Of a DNA stretch of 64,000 bases, positions 1,761 through 60,308 are shown piece by piece. Positions within the stretch are counted from its first letter, which is position 1, and every line of letters begins with the position of its first letter. Made by a program: the position numbers and the translations under genes. The DNA is from Candidatus Hydrogenedentota bacterium (GTDB lineage: Bacteria; Hydrogenedentota; Hydrogenedentia; Hydrogenedentales; CAILVY01), in assembly GCA_029565395.1 (NCBI GenBank), contig JAKQOG010000078.1:1-64000 (forward strand), given 5' to 3'. The notes under the pieces are model-generated. The model saw only the letters and a program-made list of their open reading frames with translations, searched no databases and had not been told where the DNA came from.

Positions 1761-4700
1761 ATGCTTGGTATGCGGCGTATTGCAGCAGGAACATTCCTGG
1801 CGGGAATGGTAGCGGTAATGCTGACGGGGTGCCCACAAGACGTTGGGGTGACCTTGTTGGTGGCTCCAAAAACCTTGGAGTTCGGATCGTCCCTGAATCA
1901 GTTGGGATTTACGATTACCCGGAGTTTCACCAGCACCACGGCGGGTCCCGTGGTGGTGCGTTCCACTGTGCCCTGGATTATCCCCGAAACGTGCACCGAC
2001 ACGGGGGACGGTTGCTTTACGGACAGCCGCGTGGACGTATTGTTCATCCCGGTGCGGGTGGATCGATCAGCCATGACGCTGGGAAAGAATGAAGGAGTGC
2101 TGTCGGTGGAAGCGGCGCATGCCTCCACCCAATACGTTACGGTGAAAGCGCAAGATTTGCTTCAGGTGGATTTTACCGCCGCCACCCAAACTCCGGAATT
2201 GGGGAGGCCGGTGCAATTCACCGATGAAAGTCTTGTGGCCGACGGGGATGACCCCATTATTTCCTGGCGGTGGAATTTTGGCGATGGCGGCCAAAGCGTT
2301 TTGCAGAATCCGTCGCATATTTATGCCGTGGCCGGGCAATATGCGGTAACCCTTGCTGTCAATACGAATAGTCGCACGGAAACCGTAACCAAGGCGGCGT
2401 TTATTAATGCGGGAAGTTCGGCGCCTGCCGCGGATTTTCAGGCGGCGGCCACCAGCATTTTCGAGCGGGATGAAATTGGTTTTACGGATTTGTCCGTTTC
2501 GACGGCCTCCCCGATTGTTGCGCGGTTGTGGGATTTTGGCGACGGCCATACGAGTACGGCCGATGCGCCGATGCACCAATACAGCAAAACTGGAATGTAC
2601 ACTGTATCGTTGCGTGTGACTACGGCTTTGGGTGCAACAGACACCGAGACGAAAACCAACTACATCATTGTGCAGCGGACGCGGGGCCCTCAGGCGAATT
2701 TCGCCCTTTCCCAAGTCTCCCCTTATGTGTTGATAGCCGTGGAATTCCGGGATGTGTCGGATCCGGGCACTGCGCCCATCGAACAATGGGTGTGGGAATT
2801 TGGCGATGGCATCATCAGCCTGGAGCAAAATCCCACGCATGTGTATAGGAACGTGGGCCCGTATACCGTGCGGCTAACGGTTATCACGCAACATGGCTAT
2901 GACACCGCCACGCAAAACATCGAAGTGGTGTATAAACCGCCCATTGCTGAGTTTGAAGCGGATAACACCAGCCCATCGGTGGATGAAGTTGTTCAGTTCA
3001 CTGATTTGTCATTGCCTGGCGTGGCGCCCACGGGGCCGGCCGATGTGGATCGCTGGCACTGGGATTTCGGCGATGGGAAAACAAGCACCGCCCAGAATCC
3101 GGCACACGCTTACAACCGTGAAGGCACCTTTACGGTGTCATTGACGATCGGCAGCAGTGATTTACCCGCCACGATCACGGATACGGAAATTAAGAAGGAC
3201 TATATTGTTGTTATCAAGGCTCCCGAACCCGCGTTCAGCATTGGGTCGGACAGCCCCTTCACGCGCGAAACGATTCCGTTTACCAATGAAACCATCCCCG
3301 GCACGGAAACGGGTCTTACGTATGAATGGACTTTTGGCGATAATAGCGCCCCGGTGACGGAGGAAAATCCCACGCATGTATATAGTCAGCCGGGCACCTA
3401 TACGGTTGAACTTACCGCAAAAACCTCCACGCGGGAAGTGAGTGTATCGAAACAACTGGTGGTGGATGCCCGTCCGGATCCGGATTTCACCGCGAATCCC
3501 GTCAAAGGCACCACGGCCGATGCAATCCAGTTTACGGACACCACCAACACCACCAATACGCGGCCCGTGGAAACGCGTTTATGGCGTTTTGGGGACGGTG
3601 CGCTGAGCACTGTGCAGAATCCCGACCATATGTATTCCGCCCTGGGCCAGTATACGGTGTCGTTGACCATCACATTCAGCCATTCCGTCAGCCATAAAAT
3701 TTTCTCCGCGGAAGAAATCAAGACCAATTACATTACCATCAGCCTCCCCACGCCGCCGACGGCCAGTTTTTCCGTGGAAACCACCTGCGCGGCGGTCAAC
3801 GTGCCCATCCAGTTTACGGATACCTCGACACCCGGTAGCGCCCCCGCGATCATTTCCTGGCGCTGGACGTTTGGCGATGGCGCCACGAGTTCACTGAAGA
3901 ATCCCTTGCACGCCTATGCGCGTCCGGGCGATTATACGATAACGTTGCAGGTTACCACGGAGGATCGTTATGCGCCCTATAATACCGATTCCGCCATGCA
4001 GGAAGATTATATAAGCTGCCTGGCGGGAGTGACCGCTTTGGACACCTATGTCGCCGCCGCGGATCCTGAATATGGGTTTGAACAATTGGTTCCGCCCACA
4101 AAGGTGACGGTATCGCAGGGCGTCTTGTCGGCCACGGTGACGGTCCGGGTTATGGAGCTTACGTCGCAACGGTGGCGGACGACGGAGGATTACCGGATTG
4201 TGGCGGATGATTCGTCGGTCTGGAAACACCACATGACCATCGTGGAGCCGGAAGAGGCCAGTGGCAATACGGCCATCCTTTACATTAACGGCGGAAACAA
4301 TGGAAGCTCCGTGCCCAATCCCTCGCATCCCAGTGATGATCTTGAAGCCGAGATGAAAGCCTCGGCCGTACTGCAATCGGTGTTGGTGGATCTGCGTCAA
4401 GTGCCGAATCAGCCGATTGTATTTGAGGAAGATCGGGAGAATGGCGTGGATCTGCGGGAACGGACGGAAGACTCGATTATTTCGTATACCTACGACAAAT
4501 ACCTGAACGAGCGGAGCGCCGGAGGCAATGAGGCGGACTACAATACCTGGCCGTTGTTGCTGCCGATGGTGAAGAGCGCCGTCCGGGCCATGGATGCGGT
4601 CCAGGACATTTATAGCCAGGATTTGATGACCGGAGCCTTTTACAGCCGCAACCCCGTGGAGAAATTCATTGTGTCGGGCGGTTCCAAGCGCGGCTGGACC

Positions 4701-6680
4701 ACGTGGTTGACCGCGGCCTATGAAGAAGGCCCCAACGGGCAACAGCGCGTGAAGGCCATTGCGCCGATTGTCATTGACGTCCTCAACATGGACCGGCAGA
4801 TGCAACATCATTTTAATGCTTACGGTTATTGGGCGCCGGCGATTTACCCGTATGCCCAGGAAAAAGTGTTTGAGCGGTTCAGCGCCGAACATGAACAATA
4901 TGCCGCGGCCCTGGATTTGATGCATATTGTCGATCCGTATGAGTACCGGTGCCGCCTGGAGAATATTCCCCGGTATTGCATGAATTCGTCCGGGGATCAA
5001 TTCTTCCTTCCGGATGCGGCCCAGTGGTATTTCGACCGCTTGCCGGGCGATGAAAAATATCTGAATTACGTACCCAATTCCGATCATGGTCTTGGCGATG
5101 AGGCGGATCCCACGCAACCGGGCAACGCAACATCGGGTCTTTTGAGTTTCTTTGCCGCAATGCGCGACGGGTTGAGCCTGCCGCAGTTTTCCTGGTCGTT
5201 CGAGACCGACGGCTCTATCCTGGTGCGCACCCAGGGAACCACCCCATCGAGCGTGACGATGTATTATGCCAGCAATGCCGACGGACGGGATTTCCGCCTG
5301 GACAAGGTAGGCGCGATATGGGCCGCGAAAACGTTATCGGCGGAGGCTCCCGGGCGTTACCGGGCCTCCATGACGCGTCCGGCCCAAGGCTATAGCGCCT
5401 TCTATGTTCAGTTGAAATATCCAGGGCCGGCTTCTCTGTATAATATTTTCTCGTATATCTTAACTACACCCATTCGCGTGCTGCCATTCAACTCGGACGG
5501 GACCAATTTGTATCCCGTTTTTGCCGGAAAGCGCACGGTGGCGGGTATCGGCGCCGATCAGGTGCCGGTGGTGGCGGTTCATGGAACCCCCGAAGAAATG
5601 GGCCGCCAGTATGGCGGTCTTATGGCCAATGAGATCAAGGGTTCCTTGCCCGCTTTCCTGGCCGCCGCCCAGTTGAAGTATCCCAATCTGAGCAACGAAG
5701 CGCTGGATGCGGCATGGGACACGATTCAAGCCGCCTATGATCCCGGCAACACGGGCGCCATGTCCCGTGTTGAAGAAGAACTCATTGGCGTCGCGGAAGG
5801 ATCCGGACTGTACGATCCCGCGATCCCCGAAGAGACCGATGGTTTACTAATGCTCCGGCGCGCCAATATGGTGCCGGTGCTGGCCGCGCTTTCCGGCAAT
5901 GCCATAGCCACCACCCGCGACGCGAGCATGAGCGGGTACACCTATCAAAGCTGCAGCGTGAATTGGGCGCTGGACATCAATCTGCAGGGCATCCCCTGTG
6001 TGGTCATATATATTCCAGGAATGGCCCAGGGCTTCCCGCATGCCAATATCACGTTCGCTGGACTTGTCGGTTCCTTGACCGGCGTCAACCTCGCCGGTGT
6101 CGGCTTGTCCAGCGTGCCGGATGTTGATCTCTCCGGCGATCCCTATGTGTTCGATCTGACAGGCAAGCATTACAGCACGCTTTTCCGCGACATCCTCTAT
6201 GATGCGAGAAACAAGCGTGACGCACGGCTCGCTCTGGAAGACAATCTGCTGTTCCGCCGTCAGCATTTTGTGGTGGCGGATGGGCGTTATCTCTTGAGCA
6301 GCTTCAAGGCACAAAGCATCGGGCCTGAAGCCTCCATCCTCTTCTGGAGTGAAGATGACCCTGCCGATGAATTCGCCCCACATACCGTCCCCTATACCGT
6401 GTATAGCGGGCCGGAAGCCGGGGCCGTTGCCGCCGGAGACACCGACGGGCCGGTTATCCAGTTGTTGCGCAGCAACATCGGGGCCATCGACCAAAATGAC
6501 TTGAGCCAGGCATATTCCATCCTGGCCCCAATCCAAGGCAATACGAACCTTATGAATGTCATTTATGAAATACCGGATGATGACCTTGAGTTGAATGCCT
6601 ATGTTTCGTATGCGCACGGAAGCCAGAATGCGTATCAGCGGCCTATGGTGGCCATCGATCTGCAAAGCTTCCTTCCGTAA
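1761..6680 (+). CDS. Large lipoprotein: BACON-like N-terminus, 7 PKD repeats, PhoPQ-activated pathogenicity-related (PqaA) domain, C45-like acyltransferase domain
   Basis: ORF 1752-6680; AGGAG at 1748-1752 favours ATG 1761; lipobox LTGC; seven W/Y-x-W/R-x-FGDG PKD signatures; PqaA-like blocks (SGGSKRGWTTWLTAA, IAPIVIDVLNM, DQFFLPDAA); C-terminal VHGTPEEMGRQYGGLMA...FAGLVGSLTGVNLAGVGLS is C45-like. Confidence 0.85.
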   Translation: MLGMRRIAAGTFLAGMVAVMLTGCPQDVGVTLLVAPKTLEFGSSLNQLGFTITRSFTSTTAGPVVVRSTVPWIIPETCTDTGDGCFTDSRVDVLFIPVRVDRSAMTLGKNEGVLSVEAAHASTQYVTVKAQDLLQVDFTAATQTPELGRPVQFTDESLVADGDDPIISWRWNFGDGGQSVLQNPSHIYAVAGQYAVTLAVNTNSRTETVTKAAFINAGSSAPAADFQAAATSIFERDEIGFTDLSVSTASPIVARLWDFGDGHTSTADAPMHQYSKTGMYTVSLRVTTALGATDTETKTNYIIVQRTRGPQANFALSQVSPYVLIAVEFRDVSDPGTAPIEQWVWEFGDGIISLEQNPTHVYRNVGPYTVRLTVITQHGYDTATQNIEVVYKPPIAEFEADNTSPSVDEVVQFTDLSLPGVAPTGPADVDRWHWDFGDGKTSTAQNPAHAYNREGTFTVSLTIGSSDLPATITDTEIKKDYIVVIKAPEPAFSIGSDSPFTRETIPFTNETIPGTETGLTYEWTFGDNSAPVTEENPTHVYSQPGTYTVELTAKTSTREVSVSKQLVVDARPDPDFTANPVKGTTADAIQFTDTTNTTNTRPVETRLWRFGDGALSTVQNPDHMYSALGQYTVSLTITFSHSVSHKIFSAEEIKTNYITISLPTPPTASFSVETTCAAVNVPIQFTDTSTPGSAPAIISWRWTFGDGATSSLKNPLHAYARPGDYTITLQVTTEDRYAPYNTDSAMQEDYISCLAGVTALDTYVAAADPEYGFEQLVPPTKVTVSQGVLSATVTVRVMELTSQRWRTTEDYRIVADDSSVWKHHMTIVEPEEASGNTAILYINGGNNGSSVPNPSHPSDDLEAEMKASAVLQSVLVDLRQVPNQPIVFEEDRENGVDLRERTEDSIISYTYDKYLNERSAGGNEADYNTWPLLLPMVKSAVRAMDAVQDIYSQDLMTGAFYSRNPVEKFIVSGGSKRGWTTWLTAAYEEGPNGQQRVKAIAPIVIDVLNMDRQMQHHFNAYGYWAPAIYPYAQEKVFERFSAEHEQYAAALDLMHIVDPYEYRCRLENIPRYCMNSSGDQFFLPDAAQWYFDRLPGDEKYLNYVPNSDHGLGDEADPTQPGNATSGLLSFFAAMRDGLSLPQFSWSFETDGSILVRTQGTTPSSVTMYYASNADGRDFRLDKVGAIWAAKTLSAEAPGRYRASMTRPAQGYSAFYVQLKYPGPASLYNIFSYILTTPIRVLPFNSDGTNLYPVFAGKRTVAGIGADQVPVVAVHGTPEEMGRQYGGLMANEIKGSLPAFLAAAQLKYPNLSNEALDAAWDTIQAAYDPGNTGAMSRVEEELIGVAEGSGLYDPAIPEETDGLLMLRRANMVPVLAALSGNAIATTRDASMSGYTYQSCSVNWALDINLQGIPCVVIYIPGMAQGFPHANITFAGLVGSLTGVNLAGVGLSSVPDVDLSGDPYVFDLTGKHYSTLFRDILYDARNKRDARLALEDNLLFRRQHFVVADGRYLLSSFKAQSIGPEASILFWSEDDPADEFAPHTVPYTVYSGPEAGAVAAGDTDGPVIQLLRSNIGAIDQNDLSQAYSILAPIQGNTNLMNVIYEIPDDDLELNAYVSYAHGSQNAYQRPMVAIDLQSFLP

Positions 6681-6699
6681 ATGGGCATGATCATCGTAC

Positions 6700-6735
6700 A
6701 AGGCGCCGGAGTTGTTGCTTCGGCGCCTTTTCTCT
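6700..6735 (+). terminator. Rho-independent terminator after the PKD lipoprotein
   Basis: AAGGCGCCG (6700-6708) / CGGCGCCTT (6721-6729) followed by a T-rich tail. Confidence 0.75.
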
Positions 6736-6792
6736 CTCTTCAACAAAACCGCAACAGGGTTTTTCAATACAATCGGAGGAGTTTTGGACGTT

Positions 6793-7785
6793 ATGTATAA
6801 AAAGCCCGCCATTACTTCAGGCACTGGCGCCGCTTCTTCCCTCAAGGATATTCCAGGCGTCCCGCTGGCAGTCACCATGGATGTTCCCTGGCGCCTTTTT
6901 CAGAAACAGGTCTCCTGGACTCCAGACCATGTGCATTTTGTATCCGATATGGACCTGCCCACCCTTGAAGCAGCAGACCGTCTCTGTCCCCATTGCGACG
7001 TGGTTGTGGGCATTGGCGGGGGATCCTGTTGCGACACTGCGAAATATCTGGCATGGAAACGGGGATGCCGGATGATTCTTGTACCCACCATAGTTTCGGT
7101 GGATGCCCCTCTGACTAACATGATTGCCGTGCGGGTGGACAAGAAAGTCCAGTATATCGGCGACATTTTCCCTGAGGAAATCATTATTGACTATCGCCTT
7201 ATCCAAGAGGCCCCCAAAGAACTCAACCGGGCAGGCGCCTGCGACATTGCCAGCATTCATACGGCGCTCTTTGACTGGAAACTGGCCCATGAGAACACAG
7301 GCGAACCCTATTTTCCCGGCGTAGCCCGCGAAGCGCTGGCATGCCTTGAGGAATTGGATAGAAATGCCTCGGAAATCCATGACGTCACCTCCAAGGGGAT
7401 CGACACGATTGTCGATCTGTTCCGGAGGGAGGTGGAATTCTGCGCGCGCATCGGCGCCAGCCGTCCTGAAGAAGGGGCTGAACATATTGTGGCGTATGGG
7501 ATGGAACACCTCACTCGCCGTCATTTCCTGCATGGCGACTTGGTGGGGTTGGGAATATTCACCATCTCCCGGCTACAGCAAAACGCCCCGGAATGGGCGG
7601 AGAATCTTATCCGCCGCTGCGGATTGCGCTACACCGTTCCGGAGGCCACGCCCGCTGAAATCCGAAACTGTTTGTTGGGTCTGAGGGCCTTCAAAGAAAA
7701 AGCCCGCCTTTTTTATAGTGTGGTGGATACCTGTGAAATCACCGAACAATTTGTCGAAGACACCCTAGCCGCACTATATAAATAA
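6793..7785 (+). CDS. Iron-containing alcohol dehydrogenase family, sn-glycerol-1-phosphate dehydrogenase-like
   Basis: GIGGGSCCDTAKYLA, PTIVSVDAPLTNMIAV, AYGMEHLTRRHFLHGDLVGLG; the start called at 6712 overlaps the terminator, so ATG 6793 behind CGGAGGA is preferred. Confidence 0.75.
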   Translation: MYKKPAITSGTGAASSLKDIPGVPLAVTMDVPWRLFQKQVSWTPDHVHFVSDMDLPTLEAADRLCPHCDVVVGIGGGSCCDTAKYLAWKRGCRMILVPTIVSVDAPLTNMIAVRVDKKVQYIGDIFPEEIIIDYRLIQEAPKELNRAGACDIASIHTALFDWKLAHENTGEPYFPGVAREALACLEELDRNASEIHDVTSKGIDTIVDLFRREVEFCARIGASRPEEGAEHIVAYGMEHLTRRHFLHGDLVGLGIFTISRLQQNAPEWAENLIRRCGLRYTVPEATPAEIRNCLLGLRAFKEKARLFYSVVDTCEITEQFVEDTLAALYK

Positions 7786-7901
7786 TCGATGTCCGGACTT
7801 TAGGAAGCCGGGCGGCGATCCCATGGGGCAACATTTTGTGGTGGATTGTTTTTTATCCACAATAGAATGTGTTTTAAAGGGGGAAATGACGCTAAAAGGC
7901 C

Positions 7902-7930
7902 TTGACTGCCCCCCATGTTTTTGCTATACT
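7902..7930 (+). promoter_or_regulatory. Sigma70-type promoter for the porin gene
   Basis: TTGACT (7902-7907), 17-bp spacer, TATACT (7925-7930); about 120-nt 5' UTR to ATG 8052. Confidence 0.65.
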
Positions 7931-8051
7931 GCCTTCAACATACCGGGGAGTTTGTTTCAAAGTGAAAGTGAGTAGTACAGTGTACATGTAAAAAGAGGAG
8001 AAGCAACCCTGGGAAGTATCCGGGCATGTCCGGTGCAAGAAGGAGAAAACA

Positions 8052-9521
8052 ATGCGTTCCATTAAAACAATAGTGATGATGGTCTTGCTGATGAGTGTTT
8101 GTGGCATGGTGTATGCCGAACTCCAGAATGTGGAGGTTGGCGGATCAATTCGCATCCGTGGGAATTGGTTTGAAGGCGAACATAACTCAAACGTGGATTT
8201 GTCCTTTATTGAACAGCGCACGCGGTTGAGCGTTAAGGCGGATTTCACCCAGAATGTCAGCGCTTTCTTTGAACTGGACAGCTATGACATCTGGGGGGAA
8301 GATTTCCGTTCCCAAAATTACATTACGGGCGGCGACACCCGTGCGCGGAGCGTGGATGATGTTGAGTTTTATCAGGCCTATATCCAGGCGAGCAATATGT
8401 GGGATACCGGCCTGCAACTCCGCATAGGCCGTCAGGAGATCATTCTGGGCAGCGGGTGGCTGGTCGGCAATAACAGCACCTCCTCATTCTTTACGGGGCT
8501 TTCTTTCGACGCTATCTTGCTGTCCTATGTGTTGGACGATAAATTCGCCGCGCATCTCCTATTCTCGAAGTTGGCGGAAACCATGCGCGATTTTGGCGAA
8601 AACGATACAGAAGTTTACGGGCTGTATCTGTCGTGCACGGCGGTGGAAAACATGGCCTTCGACCTTTACTACTTGTTCCTGCGCGATGACGGGCCAGTGA
8701 TTGGTTCGGCGGGAGCGAACAATCTATTACGGGCGTTGTTCCCGAAATTTGCGGGGAAAACCGCCCAAACCGCGGATGTCCACACGGTTGGGCTCCGTGC
8801 CGCCGGAACCTATGAGGGGCTTGATTTTGAAGCGGAAACCGCCTTTCAATTCGGCTCCATCAGCGACGGCGGCCACCGCCACTTAAAGATTTGGGCGGCG
8901 GACAGCGACCTCACCTATTCCAATGTGGGAATCAATTTACAAACCGGGTATACCTTCGATGTAGTCACCAAGCCGCATCCTTTTGTGGGGTTTGCAGCCT
9001 TCCTGGGGTTGAACGACCATGGCAACCCCGATTTGCCTTTCAACCGCCTCTTCTCCAATTGGGAATACAGTGAGTTCCTTGAGAACACCGACTTATCCAA
9101 TTGCTACGTGTTTCAAACCGGCTTAAAGCTCCATCCCGGCATTGACAGCGTCACCCTGAAAGCAGTGGCCTCTTGTTATGTATCAGACAAGGACGAAGGA
9201 AGCCGGAACCGCATGTATGATCTCTCCACCGGCAGCTTAGGAGAGCGTCTGCGGCATTGGGCCTGGAACACAGAGAACAATTGGAAACGGATTTTCGATG
9301 GCACGGGAAAATCCAGTAATGAAGCGGCATGGGAACTGGGTCTGTACGGGGATTATGCCTACAGCAAAGATCTTACTTTCCGCGCGGGCTATGCCCACCT
9401 GTGGACGGAGAGTGGCGTTGCCAACAGTGATCGCATTACACAGAATGGCACAGCGGCCTTCAACAGTGGAAACAATAAAGACTTGGATTATCTCTTCTTT
9501 GAGACCGAACTCAAATTCTGA
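8052..9521 (+). CDS. Alginate-export-family outer membrane porin
   Basis: Signal peptide; beta-barrel pattern; GGSIRIRGNWFE..IEQRTRLSVKADFT, LQLRIGRQEIILGSGWLVGNN; terminal aromatic F. Confidence 0.75.
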   Translation: MRSIKTIVMMVLLMSVCGMVYAELQNVEVGGSIRIRGNWFEGEHNSNVDLSFIEQRTRLSVKADFTQNVSAFFELDSYDIWGEDFRSQNYITGGDTRARSVDDVEFYQAYIQASNMWDTGLQLRIGRQEIILGSGWLVGNNSTSSFFTGLSFDAILLSYVLDDKFAAHLLFSKLAETMRDFGENDTEVYGLYLSCTAVENMAFDLYYLFLRDDGPVIGSAGANNLLRALFPKFAGKTAQTADVHTVGLRAAGTYEGLDFEAETAFQFGSISDGGHRHLKIWAADSDLTYSNVGINLQTGYTFDVVTKPHPFVGFAAFLGLNDHGNPDLPFNRLFSNWEYSEFLENTDLSNCYVFQTGLKLHPGIDSVTLKAVASCYVSDKDEGSRNRMYDLSTGSLGERLRHWAWNTENNWKRIFDGTGKSSNEAAWELGLYGDYAYSKDLTFRAGYAHLWTESGVANSDRITQNGTAAFNSGNNKDLDYLFFETELKF

Positions 9522-14070: not shown

Positions 14071-16188
14071 ATGTCACTCGGCACCCGGATTGGTCTTTAT
14101 CTGTTGATAGCCGTCACCGTCTATGGAGTGCTGGATTATTCGATCCAGCGCTGGGTGATTCTGCCCAGTTTTGAGAAACTTGAACGGCGCGATGCAGCGG
14201 AGAACCTGGACCGGTGCGCCTCGGCAATTCAACGCGAACTCAAACACCTGGATATCTTCTGCCGGGACTGGTCCGCCTGGGATGACAGCTATGCCTTTAT
14301 CGTGAGTGGCAATCCCGAATACATCAAGGCGAATCTTATCGATCTTACTTTTACGGACAACCGGTTAAGCCTGATCTTTTTTGTCGATATTCATGGCAAA
14401 GTCGTCTGGGGGCGATTCTTCGATCTCGAACAAAACAAACCCGCGGAGCTGGACAAATTTCCCCCTTCCTCGTGGGCTTTGAACAACCCCCTGCTGCAAC
14501 ACAAGTCAGAGGACAGCTCTCTGTCCGGTATTCTGCTTACGCGGGCGGGGGCCATGCTTGTGGTATCCCGGCCCATCATTACCACCCTGAACATGGGCCC
14601 TATCCGCGGCTCATTAATAATGGGCCGCCTGCTGGACAATACATTAATCACTTCCATCGCGGAACAGATTAAGGCCGCCGTGGAAATCAAGCCCATCGTG
14701 GAGAACTGGCTCTCGCCTGAAGATCTGGACCACCTTAGCGCCCTGACCCCGGAGCACCCCTATCATTACGCGGAGCACGGGATGCGTAATCTACATGTCT
14801 GCACGACGTACGCCGGGATGGATGGGAAACCCGTCCTGTGGATTCAGGCAACGATCAACCGCTACATCATGGCACAAGGTATGGATACCGTTTGGATGGC
14901 CCGGTTGTCCATGGTCGTCATAGGCTTGCTCGTGTTCCTGGTTGTCTTGTTGTCCATCCGTTTTTCCGTCACCAAACCCCTTGCCCATCTAACCGGCCAT
15001 GTCACTCGAGTTACCAAGGAAGAGGATTTGGCTTCACTGGAACTGCCGCCCCGGCGCGATGAAATAGGCCTCCTCACGCGCGAGTTCAATCATATGGTGC
15101 GCCGAATCCAAAACGACAATGCCGAACGGCGGCAAGCCGAAAAGGCCTTGCGGGAACAGGAAACGTGGATTCATACGGTTTTGGATACGGCGCCTGACGG
15201 CATCGTCACGATCGATGAAAACGGGCTGCTGAAAACGGTTAATCCCGCGTTTGAGCGCCTCTTCGGATATACCGCCCAGGAAATGATTGGGCGGTCCCTT
15301 ACCGATTTTATTCCCGTTGCCCTCGAGAAGAAACCGGAAGGAACAGAGGAAGCCACACACACGGTTGTAGAGACCATTGGCCATCATAAAAAGGGCGGCA
15401 TGGTACCGCTGTTATGGACGCAAAGCGAAGCCACCATCAGCGGGAAACGCGTTTTCATCGGGATAGTCCGTGATATCACTGAATTCAAAGCCATGCACGA
15501 TAAAGTCCTTCGGGCGGAACACCTCGCCGCGCTCGGAGAAATGGGCGCTTCCGTAGCCCATGAAGTCCGCAATCCCCTTGCCGGCATTAGCAGCGCCGCC
15601 CAAGTGCTTCGGGAAACGCTTCCCCCGGACGATAGCCGCCGGGAGGTTATCCAGGAAATGCTGGATGAAGTTGCGCGCGTCGAAACCATCATACGGCGCC
15701 TGCTCATGCTGGCAAAATCCTGGGCGCCGGCGAAAGAGCCGATCAATGCATTCTTGCTTGCCGCACGCATTTCCCGCGAAGCCCGTGAACGCCCCCCCTG
15801 GGAACACATCGAATTCCTTTTCGAAGGAAGCGATACGCTCTCGATCTTCGCGGATCCCGCCCTCATCGAACAGGTATTCTGGAACATCCTGCAAAATGCC
15901 GCCGACGCTCTCGCCGCGCAAACCGCTCCCAAGCGGATTGCCTGGCGATTTGAAAACCTTGCCGGTGGCGCCCGCATCGTGATCAAAGACAATGGGTGCG
16001 GCATGCCGCAGGAGATTGTGGACAGGCTGTTTAATCCTTTTTTCACCACGAAAACCTATGGAACGGGCCTGGGACTCCTGATCTGTCAGCGTATCGTCGA
16101 GGCTCATGGCGGAACAATCTCCGCCGCAAGCCTGCCTGGAGAAGGAACGGAAATTATTGTGGTACTGCCCCAAGGAGAGCAAGCATGA
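14071..16188 (+). CDS. Sensor histidine kinase (CHASE4-HAMP-PAS-HisKA-HATPase)
   Basis: CHASE4-like periplasmic region between two TMs; HAMP; PAS; LAALGEMGASVAHEVRNPLAGI H-box; DNGCGMPQEI and GTGLGLLICQRIVEAHGG ATPase motifs. Confidence 0.9.
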   Translation: MSLGTRIGLYLLIAVTVYGVLDYSIQRWVILPSFEKLERRDAAENLDRCASAIQRELKHLDIFCRDWSAWDDSYAFIVSGNPEYIKANLIDLTFTDNRLSLIFFVDIHGKVVWGRFFDLEQNKPAELDKFPPSSWALNNPLLQHKSEDSSLSGILLTRAGAMLVVSRPIITTLNMGPIRGSLIMGRLLDNTLITSIAEQIKAAVEIKPIVENWLSPEDLDHLSALTPEHPYHYAEHGMRNLHVCTTYAGMDGKPVLWIQATINRYIMAQGMDTVWMARLSMVVIGLLVFLVVLLSIRFSVTKPLAHLTGHVTRVTKEEDLASLELPPRRDEIGLLTREFNHMVRRIQNDNAERRQAEKALREQETWIHTVLDTAPDGIVTIDENGLLKTVNPAFERLFGYTAQEMIGRSLTDFIPVALEKKPEGTEEATHTVVETIGHHKKGGMVPLLWTQSEATISGKRVFIGIVRDITEFKAMHDKVLRAEHLAALGEMGASVAHEVRNPLAGISSAAQVLRETLPPDDSRREVIQEMLDEVARVETIIRRLLMLAKSWAPAKEPINAFLLAARISREARERPPWEHIEFLFEGSDTLSIFADPALIEQVFWNILQNAADALAAQTAPKRIAWRFENLAGGARIVIKDNGCGMPQEIVDRLFNPFFTTKTYGTGLGLLICQRIVEAHGGTISAASLPGEGTEIIVVLPQGEQA

Positions 16189-17552
16189 CCCCGCGTATTT
16201 TGGTGGTGGATGATGAAAAGTTAATCCGATGGTCCCTCGGCGAGTGTTTCCGCAAGGAAGGGTTCCAAGTTGAACTTGCGGGCGATGGCGCCGCCGCCGC
16301 CGCCTTCCTCGAAAAACATGATGTCGACCTCGCATTGCTCGATCTGCGGCTCCCCGACACGGACGGCATACAGCTTCTTAAAAAAGCGCACGATGAAATC
16401 CCGGGGCTCCCCGTCATCATTATTACCGCTTTTTCCAGCATCGACAGCGCTGTCGAGGCCATGCGATGCGGCGCGGTGGACTACATCACCAAACCCTTTA
16501 ATATGGACGAATTGATGATTTCCGTCAGACGCGTCCTCGATACCGAATCCATCCGGCAACGCCTTTCTTCCCATATTAATGAAGAAAAGGTGCGCTTCGG
16601 ACTCGGCAATATTGTCGGTGAAAGCCCCAAAATGATTGATATCCGGCGCCTTGTGCGGCGTATCGCCCGGAGTGAAACCACGTCCATCCTCCTTCTTGGA
16701 GAAAGCGGAACCGGCAAAGACATGATTGCCCGCGCCATCCATTACGAGTCCGCCCGCGCCGACAAACCCTTCATGAACATTACCAGCACCGCCTTGCCCG
16801 AAACCCTGTTGGAATCGCAAATCTTCGGCCATGAAAAAGGGGCCTTCACGGACGCCCGCGAGCTGAAAAAGGGACTCTTCGAATTCGCCGACGGCGGTTC
16901 CGTCTATCTTGATGAAATCGGCGATATGCAACCCGCGTTGCAGGCGAAATTATTGCGCGTTCTCGAAGACAGAGCCTTCAAGCGGGTTGGTGGAACCGAT
17001 GATATCCGGGTCGACGTCCGCGTCATCGCCGCCACCAACCGGAATATCCATGAGGCGATGAAAACCGGGCAATTCCGAGAAGACCTCTTTTACCGCCTCA
17101 GCGCCGTCCCCATAGTTGTGCCGCCCCTCCGTGAAAGAAAGGAAGACCTTCCCGCACTCGCCAACCACTTCCTACAGCTCTATAACCATGAATTCCACCG
17201 CGACATTAGCCCTCTTTCCACCGAGGTAGTCGAAAAGCTCTCCACCTACAATTGGCCCGGAAATGTCCGCGAGTTGCGTAATGTCATTGAGCGCGCGGCC
17301 TTACTGGCAAAAGAAGACACCCTAATGGAAAGCGATGTGATGCTCGGAACCGCCTTGCTTGGACACATCCAACCTGCCGTTGCCTGCTTCCGCCTCCCAG
17401 AAGAGGGGTGCAACATGGAAGAAGTGGAAAAAATGCTGCTCCAACAGGCCTTGGAACGTACGCAGGGCAATCGTACCCGCGCCGCGGAACTCCTCGGGAT
17501 GACCCGCGACCAAATTCGATACAAAATGGAGAAATTTGACTTAAACGTCTAG
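16185..17552 (+). CDS. Sigma54-dependent response regulator (NtrC family: REC-AAA+-Fis HTH)
   Basis: REC VDDEKLIRWSL...DLALLDLRLPDTDG; Walker A GESGTGKD; GAFTDA loop; EEVEKMLLQQALERTQGNRTRAAELLGMTRDQIRYKM; 4-nt ATGA overlap with the kinase. Confidence 0.92.
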   Translation: MTPRILVVDDEKLIRWSLGECFRKEGFQVELAGDGAAAAAFLEKHDVDLALLDLRLPDTDGIQLLKKAHDEIPGLPVIIITAFSSIDSAVEAMRCGAVDYITKPFNMDELMISVRRVLDTESIRQRLSSHINEEKVRFGLGNIVGESPKMIDIRRLVRRIARSETTSILLLGESGTGKDMIARAIHYESARADKPFMNITSTALPETLLESQIFGHEKGAFTDARELKKGLFEFADGGSVYLDEIGDMQPALQAKLLRVLEDRAFKRVGGTDDIRVDVRVIAATNRNIHEAMKTGQFREDLFYRLSAVPIVVPPLRERKEDLPALANHFLQLYNHEFHRDISPLSTEVVEKLSTYNWPGNVRELRNVIERAALLAKEDTLMESDVMLGTALLGHIQPAVACFRLPEEGCNMEEVEKMLLQQALERTQGNRTRAAELLGMTRDQIRYKMEKFDLNV

Positions 17553-47565: not shown

Positions 47566-49284
47566 ATGTTGGGAGAGCCTTCTCTTACCTCGCCTATACA
47601 AGCCATAAGGGCACTTACTATGCCAAGTCAATACAGTCCGGCACGCAAGACAATCGGCGACCTCTTGTCAATGACAAATCCTCCAATCGTTGTTCCTGAC
47701 TGGCAGCGCAACTTTAGTTGGACAACATCAGAAGTAGAGACATTCTGGCAAGATCTCTTGCGATTTGACCAACTGTATCCAAACGACAATATTAACGATC
47801 AGGAGTATTTTCTCGGTGCGATCGTCATCGTTGACACTGAGCAGGGCAATCTGCTGCTTGATGGACAACAACGCATAGCTACAGCAGCAATTCTGCTTTC
47901 AACCATACGTGATTTTCTGAAACGATATAGTACCGATGCTGCGCAACGACTAAGTTCTCGATACCTTTCGGATTATGATGACGCTACAGAACGCACAATC
48001 TATAAGATTAGCCTAAATCGGTTTGATAGAGACTTCTTCAGGCGAGAAATTCTTGAGTCACGAGAGGCAAATTACACTGCACCTGCCCCCCGGTGTGAAT
48101 CCCATCAGCATATTCGCAAGGCTCGCAGTTTCTTTGAGGCAAAGTTTGATGAAAGATATACACAGATAAACGATCCAAAAGCAGCACAACAATGGTCCTT
48201 GCGTATCCTCAAAGTTTTGACCTCGCATATGTCTGTAGTGGCAGTGATTTCTCAGGATGAAGACAATGCATCGTCAGTATTCGAGACACTTAATGACCGT
48301 GGAATTGGCCTTTCCACCCCTGATTTGCTTCGCAACTTGGTTCTTCGGCGCGCTCAAGAAACCCAATCAGACGAAGTGTTGGACCTTTGGGGAGAAATAT
48401 TGGGAATTCAGAGCGATGCTAAGCTAGACGGCTTCTTTCGCCACTTCTGGATTTCCCGAGAAGGTGATGTAAAGACACGTTCGCTTTATCGTGAGATCAA
48501 GAAGCGCATACTTGAAACGGATTGGTCGAGCCTCGACTTGTCACGGACTCTTCGAAATTCGGCAAAGGTGTACGAAGACATTGTAAATGGCCGTTTTGAT
48601 GATAGCGAGAAGGTCGCCCGTTATTTTGCTGGTGTTGCCGAGCTTGGTGCAAAGGTTCTTTATCCTCCATATCTGAGTATTGTTGAGGCATGCAAGGATA
48701 TGCAGCTCATTGAACAGATGACCTGGGCACTCATGGTCGCGTATGTTCGCCATTCACTAGTTTGCGGAAAGGAAAATAGTCAAATCGAAGATTTTACTTT
48801 TTCCCTCGCCAAACGCGTCCGAGAAAATCCTGTGTCATCGCTTGTCGATGAAATTCGGGAGTTCGCTCCTAGTGATGGACGATTCCGGGAATCGTTCGCA
48901 AGTCTGATTCTAAAGCGTCAGGCTTCGGCAAGGTATTTGTTAAGAGAAATCGAGCAGTCCGAACGAACAACAGAAGAGCTTGATGTAGGGCCTCCTTCGC
49001 GAGTTCATGTCGAACATATCTACCCCCTTACACCTAAAGCCGAGAATCGTTGGGAGCATCATGACAGATTTGTTTCGCGCATTGGGAATTTGACGCTGTT
49101 GTCAAGGCGCCTAAACATAAGTATTCAGAACGGCACATATCAAGAGAAGAAGGATTCTTACATACAGTCCGAGCTCTTGATAACCAAAAAACTGCCTGAA
49201 GAATACGCGGATTGGAATCCTGAGAGTGTTGAGAGTCGCCAGAAAGTACTGGCGGACAAGGCTGTTGATATCTGGAGCTTTTAA
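47566..49284 (+). CDS. DUF262/DUF1524 protein, GmrSD-like (type IV restriction-type) nuclease
   Basis: DUF262: VPDWQRNFSWTTSEVETFWQDLL...YFLGAIVIV...LLLDGQQRIATA; DUF1524 HNH-like: VHVEHIYPLTP...RIGNLTLLSRRLNISIQN; start could be 47566 or 47620. Confidence 0.88.
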   Translation: MLGEPSLTSPIQAIRALTMPSQYSPARKTIGDLLSMTNPPIVVPDWQRNFSWTTSEVETFWQDLLRFDQLYPNDNINDQEYFLGAIVIVDTEQGNLLLDGQQRIATAAILLSTIRDFLKRYSTDAAQRLSSRYLSDYDDATERTIYKISLNRFDRDFFRREILESREANYTAPAPRCESHQHIRKARSFFEAKFDERYTQINDPKAAQQWSLRILKVLTSHMSVVAVISQDEDNASSVFETLNDRGIGLSTPDLLRNLVLRRAQETQSDEVLDLWGEILGIQSDAKLDGFFRHFWISREGDVKTRSLYREIKKRILETDWSSLDLSRTLRNSAKVYEDIVNGRFDDSEKVARYFAGVAELGAKVLYPPYLSIVEACKDMQLIEQMTWALMVAYVRHSLVCGKENSQIEDFTFSLAKRVRENPVSSLVDEIREFAPSDGRFRESFASLILKRQASARYLLREIEQSERTTEELDVGPPSRVHVEHIYPLTPKAENRWEHHDRFVSRIGNLTLLSRRLNISIQNGTYQEKKDSYIQSELLITKKLPEEYADWNPESVESRQKVLADKAVDIWSF

Positions 49285-49681: not shown

Positions 49682-51187
49682 TTAATTGTTAATCTGTTTC
49701 AAAAAATCACCGAATTTGCCACTCTGGTTCAGCAAATCAATTGCCGTAGTTCCTTCTAACGCATTCCACTTTTCGAACAAAAGGCCCTTTAGCCCCGGGT
49801 CTAAAAAGTCATTTGCATCCAGACGTTGCAGGAGTGAGGCGCTAAGAGGACCATGACGAAGGTCACCCGGCTGTACACTCAGACCTTCCGCTGCCTGTTT
49901 AGAAACCAACAGCAAGTTTAAGGCCCGCTTCTGTCGAGCTAATGCCTTCGATGCCAGAATCATGACGGCCGTCAACGCAGTAATATCCTGCTCCTTCCAT
50001 TTGGAACAGAAAACCTGCTCGAGTATCAGTGCCTTTGTTAGGCGTTCCGCAATTGTTCCAGCGGCGACATCGTGTTTCTTGGACCATGTAAGCGTATTCT
50101 GTACGTCATTCACATGCAGCACTTTGAGAAGCCACTCCTGGCTTTCATGGTCTATCAAGTTTAGCAGCAGAAAGCACCCACGCCGCGACCATCTACCAAC
50201 GTCGCCCTTTTCTTCAAGCAGGCCTCCGAGTACCGGAAATGCTTCAGGAGAGCCTAAAATACCAAGCGCAAACGTAGCGGCACTCCGCACGGGTATTGCT
50301 TCTGTCGGGTTAGTCGCTATAACTGCTAATCTAGGCAGAAAATGTCGGTTTCCGGAACGCCCCGCCCTATCGCACGCCGTTGCCCGAATTCCTGGGTCAT
50401 TGTGGCACATCAGTGCTTCGACATGCTGCTGGGTGGTCTGACTATAACGATCACTCTTTGGAACAAATTTCAACGTGCGTGTGAGCCAAGCCATTGCAGT
50501 TGAGACATCCTCAACGGGGTGGATACTGGGCAGAATTTGAGCGCGAATATGAGCCAGGTGTTCTATTGCTGCTTTTGCCCCAATCGGGCGGCTGTACCTA
50601 AAGGTAAAAGCTCTGCTATTTCTCTTCCGTGACCCCTGCGATCTATTTCGCCTTGGTTCTGATTCCTCCTGTTCCCCCATGGGAAGCAGTGCAACCATTG
50701 ATTCCTCAATCTGGTCCAGATAATTTGCCGGCAACGGCGATGCGATTTCCCAAGACTCAAAGAAGACCTTGGTACAATCCGCTCCAATCTGCTTGGACTC
50801 GAACATAACGCATATTTCATGATTTCGGTAAATGCCACCATCTGTCATGTTCGCGGAACCGATGATAACACGTTGACGGTCAGATACCAGCATCTTTGCA
50901 TGCAACATTGGCAAGGCTCTTACTGCGAGTTTGATTCCGGAGGGATATGTCGTGGCTCTAAAACAGGCAATATGAGAAGCGCCGGAAAGAAAGTCTGATT
51001 CATCACACCGAGCCAAGACTTGAAAACTGAGTGGTCCTGATAGAGACAAGTCGTGCCCAATCAATCTGGCCACATTTTCTGTTATCCACGGAGACATAAG
51101 AAGTAGCTCATGCTGTGTGGCTTTTATGAATGCGGAGAGTGTGTCAATCCAGGCACCGGAGATTATTTGCACGCCAACTACGCCCAT
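49682..51187 (-). CDS. Phospholipase D-like (single HKD) domain fused to HEAT-like repeats
   Basis: LHAKMLVSDRQRVIIGSANMTDGG matches HxK(x)4D(x)6GSxN; C-terminal HEAT pattern (DPGIRATACDRAG, IPVRSAATFALGILGSPEAFPVLGGLLEE); start likely ATG 51187 behind AGGAG. Confidence 0.85.
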   Translation of the reverse strand: MGVVGVQIISGAWIDTLSAFIKATQHELLLMSPWITENVARLIGHDLSLSGPLSFQVLARCDESDFLSGASHIACFRATTYPSGIKLAVRALPMLHAKMLVSDRQRVIIGSANMTDGGIYRNHEICVMFESKQIGADCTKVFFESWEIASPLPANYLDQIEESMVALLPMGEQEESEPRRNRSQGSRKRNSRAFTFRYSRPIGAKAAIEHLAHIRAQILPSIHPVEDVSTAMAWLTRTLKFVPKSDRYSQTTQQHVEALMCHNDPGIRATACDRAGRSGNRHFLPRLAVIATNPTEAIPVRSAATFALGILGSPEAFPVLGGLLEEKGDVGRWSRRGCFLLLNLIDHESQEWLLKVLHVNDVQNTLTWSKKHDVAAGTIAERLTKALILEQVFCSKWKEQDITALTAVMILASKALARQKRALNLLLVSKQAAEGLSVQPGDLRHGPLSASLLQRLDANDFLDPGLKGLLFEKWNALEGTTAIDLLNQSGKFGDFLKQINN

Positions 51188-51760
51188 TGTATTTAAAACT
51201 CCTACTGTCGCGTTGTGTACGGGGCATCCCTGAACCACGCATCGATTGCGGACCCTGGCTTGAACTTCTCGGCCATGTTCCCTCTCCATCTGTCATCCAC
51301 CGGCTAAAGCTCGGTGTATTTCTTATTCGAGTCCCAGCATTTTTCGACCGGGTACTTTTCCGCATTCAGTTTTATTTTACTCTCAACCCCATCCGACAGG
51401 TCAATCCCGGCTCCGTGGGCAATGTACCGGACTCAAGTTATCACGGCCACAAGTTCCTCGGAAACCTGCTGTCTTCCAGCCTCGGATTGCAGGTAAGTCA
51501 AGATTTCAACGTCTCGTTACAGAGCGTGTCAGAAATGCGCGTCCATCATCTCCGCAACGCTGTAGAATCCGTCCTCCGGGGGCGTCTTACCGACGGCTGC
51601 GGTGGGAAAGCCGTTGAAACGCCTGCTGCACTGAATGTGGTTCTTTTGTTCCTGTTCGGCGTTTGATTGGAGGGGCAACAGAAGCAGACAATGAATTGTG
51701 GACATTATGCTGTAACCAATGCTTTCCCGGTTATGTTTTTATCGATGGAGACATTTTGCT

Positions 51761-55656: not shown

Positions 55657-55768
55657 TGGGAGGGCGAGGCTCCTGCCGAGCCGTACAACAAGATCTGGAA
55701 AATCACAAATCCATATGTCGAATAAGGTATATTTGATTCAACGGCTCGGCAGGAGCCTCGCCCTCCCA
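55657..55768. repeat. Long palindromic repeat (GGCGAGGCTCCTGCCGAGCC type)
   Basis: 28-bp perfect arms TGGGAGGGCGAGGCTCCTGCCGAGCCGT (55657-55684) / ACGGCTCGGCAGGAGCCTCGCCCTCCCA (55741-55768), 56-bp loop; spurious translations give GRGSCRA, GSAGASPS, EGEAPAEP. Confidence 0.85.
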
Positions 55769-59043: not shown

Positions 59044-59123
59044 TATCCTGTGCCTGAGTTCATGGTGCGTGAACAAATCAGGTTGAGAGCGTGCGAAGTT
59101 TAATAAGAAAAGAGGGTGAGAGC

Positions 59124-60308
59124 ATGTCTCAAAAAAAGAAACCGGGCAAAGTCAAGGCCTGCCTGAAAAGAGCGAAAAGGGTGGTAAAGAAACGTTCCAT
59201 TTTTGATTTCCGCGCCCTTGTTACCGCAATCCGGCAAGCCGATGAGCAATTGGTTGCACAGGCAAGTAAAGCTGTTAACATGTGCCTAACCTTGCGCAAC
59301 TGGGCTATTGGTCTCTATATTTATGAATATGAACAAAACGGCTCGGATCGCGCAAAGTATGGCCAACAGCTATTGGAGATACTTGCTGAACGGTTAAATA
59401 AATGCGGTTTGCCACGCGTTGAAGCGCGTGAACTCCGGCGCTACCGCCAATTTTATGCGACCTATCCACAGATTCGGGAGTCACTGACTCCCGAATTGCA
59501 TTACAGGCTATTTGGCAAAGCGTTAAAAGCCTGCGATAGGATTCGGGAGTCGCCGACTCCCAAATTGACGTTCGATGGAAAAGCCCTTGTTAACAGACTT
59601 TCTTTTACACACTTTGTTGAACTTGTTGCGATAGAGGACACATCGAAACGCTTCTTCTACGAATCAGAGTGCATACGCGGCAATTGGTCCGTGCGCGAAC
59701 TAAAGCGCCAAATTGGAAGTCTGTATTATGAACGCTCCGCGCTCTCCACTAACAAGAAAGCACTGGTTAAACGTTCTCACACCACTGCACAACGAGTGGA
59801 CTCGCGCCTTACCATTCGCGATCCCTACGTGTTCGAGTTTCTTGGCCTTAAGTCAAAAGAAGTTATGTGCGAATCCAGCCTGCAAGATGCTCTTTTGGCG
59901 CGACTCCAGGATTTCATATTGGAACTGGGAAAAGGTTTCTGTTTTGAGGGACGGCAAAAGCGCATTCTCATAGGGGATGAGTATTTTTTTGTGGACTTGG
60001 TTTTCTATCACCGCATCCTTAAGTGCCATGTATTGTTTGAACTCAAGATAGATGGCTTTTCCCACGAATACCTTGGTCAGCTTAATACCTATGTAAACTG
60101 GTTTCGAAAAAATGAAATGGACGCTAAAGATAATCCGCCTATAGGCATTCTTTTGTGCACTCACAAGAATGACGCCCTCATCGAGTATGCCCTCGGCGGG
60201 CTCAATAACAAAATATTCGTGTCGCGATATAAGCTTCAGTTGCCCAAACCGAAGGAAATCCAACGATTTATTCAGCGTCAAATTGAACTGCACGACACCA
60301 CACAATGA
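59124..60308 (+). CDS. YhcG/DUF1016 PDDEXK nuclease-domain protein
   Basis: FYESECIRGNWSVRELKRQIGSLYYERSALS; DLVFYHRILKCHVLFELKIDGFSHEYLGQLNTYVNWF; GILLCTHKNDALIEYAL. Confidence 0.92.
   Translation: MSQKKKPGKVKACLKRAKRVVKKRSIFDFRALVTAIRQADEQLVAQASKAVNMCLTLRNWAIGLYIYEYEQNGSDRAKYGQQLLEILAERLNKCGLPRVEARELRRYRQFYATYPQIRESLTPELHYRLFGKALKACDRIRESPTPKLTFDGKALVNRLSFTHFVELVAIEDTSKRFFYESECIRGNWSVRELKRQIGSLYYERSALSTNKKALVKRSHTTAQRVDSRLTIRDPYVFEFLGLKSKEVMCESSLQDALLARLQDFILELGKGFCFEGRQKRILIGDEYFFVDLVFYHRILKCHVLFELKIDGFSHEYLGQLNTYVNWFRKNEMDAKDNPPIGILLCTHKNDALIEYALGGLNNKIFVSRYKLQLPKPKEIQRFIQRQIELHDTTQ
59472..59565 (+). repeat. Two in-frame palindromic units inside the yhcG-like CDS
   Basis: ATTCGGGAGTCA-C-TGACTCCCGAAT (59472-59496, perfect) and ATTCGGGAGTCG-C-CGACTCCCAAAT (59541-59565, one mismatch), offset 69 bp. 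Confidence 0.8.

Follow-up and report, generated by a model that had tools for sequence, protein, structure and literature searches.

PLD-HEAT, a rare family of putative single-HKD nucleases with a HEAT-type C-terminal part and a possible role in defence

The PLD-HEAT gene and its domains

The window, i.e., the whole stretch of 64,000 nucleotides analysed here (Candidatus Hydrogenedentota bacterium, assembly GCA_029565395.1, contig JAKQOG010000078.1), carries on its minus strand a gene for a protein that combines an N-terminal PLD domain with a helical, HEAT-containing C-terminal part, and which is designated PLD-HEAT. The gene, its predicted domains and motifs, and two nearby nuclease genes are located as follows:

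47566..49284, plus strand: single-chain GmrSD-type restriction enzyme (PADLOC HEC-06; Pfam GmrSD_N/C), convergent with the PLD-HEAT gene
49682..51187, minus strand: PLD-HEAT gene, 501 aa plus stop, with homologues of similar length
49685..50563, minus strand: all-helical C-terminal domain, residues 209-501 (AlphaFold2; conserved in P0006 and P0007)
49850..49870, minus strand: residues 440-446, conserved PGDLRHG (the three members agree throughout PGDL-x-HG)
50171..50197, minus strand: residues 331-339, conserved GRWSRRGCF (the three members agree throughout GRW-x-RRGCF)
50201..50419, minus strand: HEAT_2 core, residues 257-329 (Pfam; also HEAT_PBS at 300-325)
50564..50692, minus strand: basic linker, residues 166-208 (pLDDT <50 over 171-208)
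50693..51187, minus strand: Nuc/NucT-type single-HKD PLD domain, residues 1-165 (Pfam PLDc_2, AlphaFold2, Foldseek)
50849..50902, minus strand: catalytic motif HAKMLVSDRQRVIIGSAN, residues 96-113 (alignment of 16 relatives)
51199..51203, minus strand: likely ribosome-binding site AGGAG, 11 nt upstream of the 51187 ATG
59091..60308, plus strand: YhcG/DUF1016 PD-(D/E)xK nuclease (PADLOC PDC-S02, 7.9e-127), ~8 kb from the PLD-HEAT gene

The coordinates assigned to the PLD-HEAT open reading frame in the initial annotation were right. Although the frame continues open upstream as far as 51289, the ATG at 51187 is the likely start, since it is preceded by the AGGAG sequence and the alignments with the homologues begin there.

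Exactly one HxK and one GSxN are present in the protein, and they form the single complete HxKx4Dx6GSxN motif that had been recognised earlier (H96-A-K98-x4-D103-x6-G110-S-A-N113), within a ~160-aa alpha/beta domain, which places the protein among the single-HKD members of the PLD superfamily. Pfam PLDc_2 was matched above its cut-off at residues 81-146 (3.9e-12), and H96, K98, S111, N113, and E124 are unchanged across 16 aligned relatives. The linker, described as basic from the outset, has a pI of 11.5 over residues 166-208 and includes the sequence EPRRNRSQGSRKRNSR at residues 177-192, with residues 171-208 predicted to be disordered. Basic residues are likewise carried by the linker regions of both homologues in a three-way alignment, and this composition is consistent with nucleic-acid contact. 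The C-terminal part comprises ~290 aa with a pI of 8.7, and its earlier description as HEAT-like held insofar as the whole region is predicted to be helical, whereas HEAT is recognisable by sequence only at residues ~250-345. Pfam HEAT_2 scored 29.6 bits against a cut-off of 27.7 (8.4e-7), which, together with the predicted helical solenoid, identifies PLD-HEAT as a HEAT-repeat protein; the remainder of the C-terminus is a conserved helical extension, its final ~150 residues belonging to no named family.

Predicted structure

The full protein was modelled with AlphaFold2 using an input of 13 related rows, from which rows from plasmid records had been left out, and the model had a mean pLDDT of 82.5. 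Residues 1-165 were predicted to adopt an alpha/beta PLD fold and residues 209-500 to form helical hairpins, giving a two-domain layout with a flexible linker (pLDDT <50 at 171-208); pLDDT was mostly >90 across residues ~250-410. Foldseek comparison with the PDB returned nucleases at the top ranks, i.e., NucT (6ehi), mouse Zucchini, and Nuc (1byr), with TM values normalised to the target of 0.62-0.74 over the top matches (up to 0.73 for NucT and 0.74 for Nuc), and the restriction enzyme SauUSI was also among the matches. These results agree with the Nuc-like fold suggested earlier, and a Nuc/NucT-like single-HKD fold of the N-terminal domain is well supported at the level of the model.

The C-terminal region modelled by itself (three rows) reached a pLDDT of 76.6 and a pTM of 0.79, and resembled HEAT and alphaRep proteins. 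Foldseek retrieved nothing from the PDB at E <=0.001 for this region (best E ~0.02), with short cores superposing at 1.5-2.4 A, and its profile matched a synthetic fusion of the alphaRep type at 6e-14, the matches to natural-type HEAT chains being weaker.

Homologues and distribution

Relatives were reached through a non-exhaustive scan of a genome collection for the pattern [ILV]GSAN[LM]TxGG, which matched 211 stretches. The pattern was shaped with artificial alignments that were constant at the GSAN[ML]TxGG motif alone and are themselves no evidence. Full-length homologues were found in an Acidobacteriales MAG (G068; L030:2942-4447, 45% identity over 475 residues) and in an Acidobacteria MAG (G069; L031:7974-9515, 33-34% identity over 490 residues). 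When the three proteins were aligned, the C-terminal GRW-x-RRGCF, GT-x2-ERL-x-KAL, and PGDL-x-HG motifs were invariant like the catalytic motif, and in a tree of PLD domains the three proteins formed one clade (support 0.915). The occurrence of two full-length homologues in another phylum excludes a chance fusion, and the shared invariance of the C-terminal motifs argues that the fusion is old and under selection.

Full-length searches covered 68 genomes of the own phylum (Hydrogenedentota), Acidobacteriota samples of 396, 250, and 250 genomes, 301 Chloroflexota genomes, and 399 genomes of the phylum to which G1161, a 'Proteobacteria' MAG, belongs. No further full-length member was found in any of these sets, including the other 67 genomes of the window's small phylum. 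With only three members among ~1,700 sampled genomes, PLD-HEAT is a real, unnamed protein family that is rare and patchy; additional members may exist elsewhere, since the genome sets searched were samples. Exact-peptide scans using the PLD-HEAT protein alone gave no match, the phage records contained no relative detectable by tblastn, and the plasmid collection held only relatives of the PLD domain with other C-termini, the HEAT part alone being unmatched. Viral scans returned PLD-domain matches only: L028, a phage-like contig, carries a PLD of the DrmC type, and L029 gave a weak match of 27 residues.

PLD proteins with other C-termini

The same genome searches revealed that the PLD domain recurs with different C-termini in many proteins, among them forms of ~300 aa (L002, L077, L082-L086, L095-L097) and of ~400 aa (L010-L013, L028, L079-L081, L100), and one of the latter (P0002) is a full-length match to the PADLOC DrmC model PDLC02599 (9e-96). 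That one domain is combined with no fewer than three types of C-terminus points to effectors that form a modular set. The ~300-aa family is unnamed and occurs in some genome sets at a frequency of a few percent; it has its PLD domain family in common with PLD-HEAT, but forms a separate clade and carries, instead of HEAT, a short, conserved C-terminus of ~120 aa with DICDDSxDRVI-x-GxHFGKKWKH that is winged-helix-like by eye.

Several DrmC-type PLD genes were encountered in other surroundings. The gene at 5995-7173 (plus strand) of L028, an IMG/VR contig, resembles those of the PDLC02599 proteins and adjoins ORFs that appear phage-structural by eye. In L010 (Rhizobium pRL10, 4467-9157) such a gene, apparently split in two frames, lies beside an ATPase and an S8 peptidase, and in L012 (Agrobacterium, 6900-9206) another lies beside an Abi family gene, with no DISARM immediately adjacent in either case.

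Genomic context and mobility

The GmrSD-type neighbour in the window (PADLOC HEC-06, 7.7e-114) contains the DGQQR and HVEHIYP/GNLTLL motifs and is intact. Its GC3 (0.435) is in the same range (0.44-0.49) as that of the PLD-HEAT gene (0.48) and the YhcG/DUF1016 gene (0.488), compared with 0.60-0.73 for most genes flanking these three, and by this composition all three are foreign-looking. Comparison of ten other window ORFs with PADLOC at 1e-20 gave one match only, a generic sigma-54 regulator. The product of 16185-17552 (plus strand) is probably an ordinary sigma-54 activator and not a CARF regulator, since PADLOC RtcR models matched it solely across the AAA/HTH part. Between two genes, at 55657-55768, lies a perfect inverted repeat of 28 nt that encloses a 56-nt loop and is possibly a small repeat element. 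Direct repeats of >=20 bp framing the window island were not found. The PLD gene is absent from the same-genus and same-family genomes, whose matching contigs lack the segment; contig ends preclude the definition of an exact empty site, both contigs of one genome (G001) ending nearby and the flanking genes of the other (G002) lying on separate contigs.

In the Acidobacteria MAG G069, a tyrosine recombinase gene (Pfam Phage_integrase, 8.9e-24) ends directly before a tRNA-Leu, the first 41 bp of which, i.e., its 5' half, are repeated exactly 13.4 kb away, with the PLD-HEAT gene in between. Enclosed between the tRNA-Leu/recombinase end and the 41-bp repeat, the G069 copy is carried as cargo by an integrative element in tRNA-Leu(CAA) (L092 plus L091; contig C12, ~97596-110986), which also encodes a Prim-Pol primase and a pentapeptide-like gene. 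The gene at L031 6485-7993 (minus strand), which encodes 502 aa and is oriented divergently to the PLD-HEAT homologue, had no Pfam or PADLOC match, and its product contains a C-terminal R-x4-H-like stretch, RSRIVHDGEW, that is HEPN-like by eye. In the Acidobacteriales MAG G068 the PLD-HEAT gene comes after an HTH_17/PIN_3 pair, with a tRNA-Thr at a distance of ~0.8 kb and metabolic genes nearby, and no direct repeat was found at this locus. The neighbours differ at all three loci, and no conserved partner or antitoxin gene is common to them, so the association with defence genes counts as weak evidence.

Proposed function and alternatives

We give about even chances to the proposal that PLD-HEAT is a nuclease that acts on its own, is horizontally mobile, and probably serves to protect its carrier, be it a genome or a mobile element, from foreign nucleic acid. 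The N-terminal domains of two copies would most likely pair, such that two HKD motifs form one metal-independent active site. A dimeric nuclease is proposed by analogy with BfiI and Nuc, single-HKD enzymes that work as dimers with one shared, metal-independent site, and with the endonuclease NucT. The disordered basic linker would tether the PLD and HEAT parts and may help to load nucleic acid, and the HEAT-type solenoid would hold the nuclease off, or position it, until a trigger is met, which could be a nucleic-acid structure or an invader protein. This HEAT part, conserved at specific residues, is likely a recognition or control element, and its role as a 'sensor' is a guess from architecture, since it has no specific known counterpart in the PDB. 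Defence is the best guess for the role of PLD-HEAT, since its distribution is patchy, one lineage carries it on mobile DNA, and other nucleases of the restriction type are encoded near it. The defence role suggested by the initial annotation was supported by association only, through the mobile cargo of G069 and the defence-candidate neighbours in the window, but not by any conserved partner. The architecture is clear and the mobility evidence partial, and function is argued from analogy and association. More tentatively, PLD-HEAT may be a single-gene immune effector, with a PLD nuclease controlled by a fused invader-sensing HEAT solenoid, spread between phyla on small integrative elements as one of several C-terminus-swapped single-HKD effectors.

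HEAT-type solenoids are able to bind DNA, e.g., AlkD, and the linker and C-terminus of PLD-HEAT are both basic, as might be expected of a restriction-like enzyme whose C-terminus binds specific or modified DNA while the PLD dimer cuts nearby. The order of parts is also that of BfiI, in which an N-terminal PLD dimer with one shared metal-independent site precedes a C-terminal DNA-binding part (PMC4081073). We nevertheless consider such an enzyme unlikely, given that the protein has neither a RE_NgoFVII Pfam match nor a B3 domain, and that no methyltransferase domain was found among the neighbouring ORFs scanned in the window, L030, and L031; the latter argues against a classical restriction-modification enzyme, and modification-dependent cutting is possible. 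An abortive-infection toxin, in which a specific phage protein releases the HEAT part and the cell is killed through degradation of its own DNA or RNA, would fit a single gene lacking any antitoxin or partner conserved across the three loci, a nuclease-plus-repeat architecture, and carriage as mobile cargo, but its phage-protein trigger is purely hypothetical and we regard it as rather improbable.

It is distinctly unlikely that PLD-HEAT is a DrmC-kind accessory nuclease serving a helicase complex, be it DISARM or a different YprA system, whose genes lie elsewhere, even though DrmC models are the nearest in PADLOC, DrmC is dispensable, and the PLD nucleases have been proposed to be interchangeable (PMC9142583). 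The score with the NCBIfam DrmC equivalog is 36 bits against a cut-off of 133 (35-36 bits for the homologues), and the N-terminal four-helix bundle that most DrmC carry (PMC12458937) is absent, the PLD domain starting at the N-terminus in the AlphaFold2 model. Moreover, neither a DrmA helicase nor DrmB (DUF1998) is encoded beside the window gene, and the genome has a single MZB/DUF1998 protein, a 763-aa open frame located on a different contig. A housekeeping PLD enzyme, i.e., a cardiolipin synthase, a phospholipase, or a NucT-like nuclease for DNA uptake or salvage, is hardly credible: PLD-HEAT belongs to the same superfamily and weakly matches the models for cardiolipin synthase (16.6 bits) and NucT (17.2 bits), but these scores are far under the respective cut-offs (290 and 787, and 297 bits), it has one HKD instead of the two of cardiolipin synthases and two-HKD phospholipases, no signal sequence or membrane segment is visible by eye, and its distribution is patchy with one homologue on a mobile element.

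Single-HKD PLD nucleases are common in bacterial immunity, typically either working for a helicase complex or bearing a DNA-reading domain. If PLD-HEAT is indeed a small nuclease complete in itself, with a HEAT recognition part of its own, it would offer a simple test object for the switching of PLD nucleases. The modular effector set suggested by the different C-termini on one PLD domain is worth surveying.

Comparison with known families

No NCBIfam model scored above its cut-off and no PADLOC model aligned over the full length, so PLD-HEAT is not a named family, in line with the initial annotation, which recognised none; the GRW-x-RRGCF and PGDL-x-HG motifs matched no named family, and no description of the fusion was found in the open-licence literature. 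The initial annotation had set membership in a helicase-associated PLD or cardiolipin synthase family against its own reading; both were checked, and the cut-offs for DrmC/DISARM and for cardiolipin synthase were missed. DpdK scored 21.9 bits against an NCBIfam cut-off of 100, and the combination of a score above cut-off with Dpd neighbours was not found.

Nuc of Salmonella and NucT of Helicobacter, both homodimeric single-HKD nucleases, have the PLD fold of PLD-HEAT and are its top structural matches, but are stand-alone nucleases of ~150-180 aa without a HEAT domain. NucT is an endonuclease with a preference for single-stranded nucleic acid (PMC5714352). The PLD domain nearest in sequence is that of DrmC of DISARM, especially PADLOC PDLC02599 (5.5e-15, confined to residues 7-170); the PDLC02599 proteins, however, have a different C-terminal domain, and the PLD-HEAT locus is without DISARM genes. 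At residues ~250-345 PLD-HEAT shares a HEAT core with the HEAT_2/PBS-lyase HEAT proteins and with the alphaRep designs based on these, but they have no nuclease. Finally, BfiI and NgoFVII have the same layout of an N-terminal single-HKD nuclease and a C-terminal recognition part, which in these enzymes is a B3 fold and in PLD-HEAT an all-helical HEAT solenoid.
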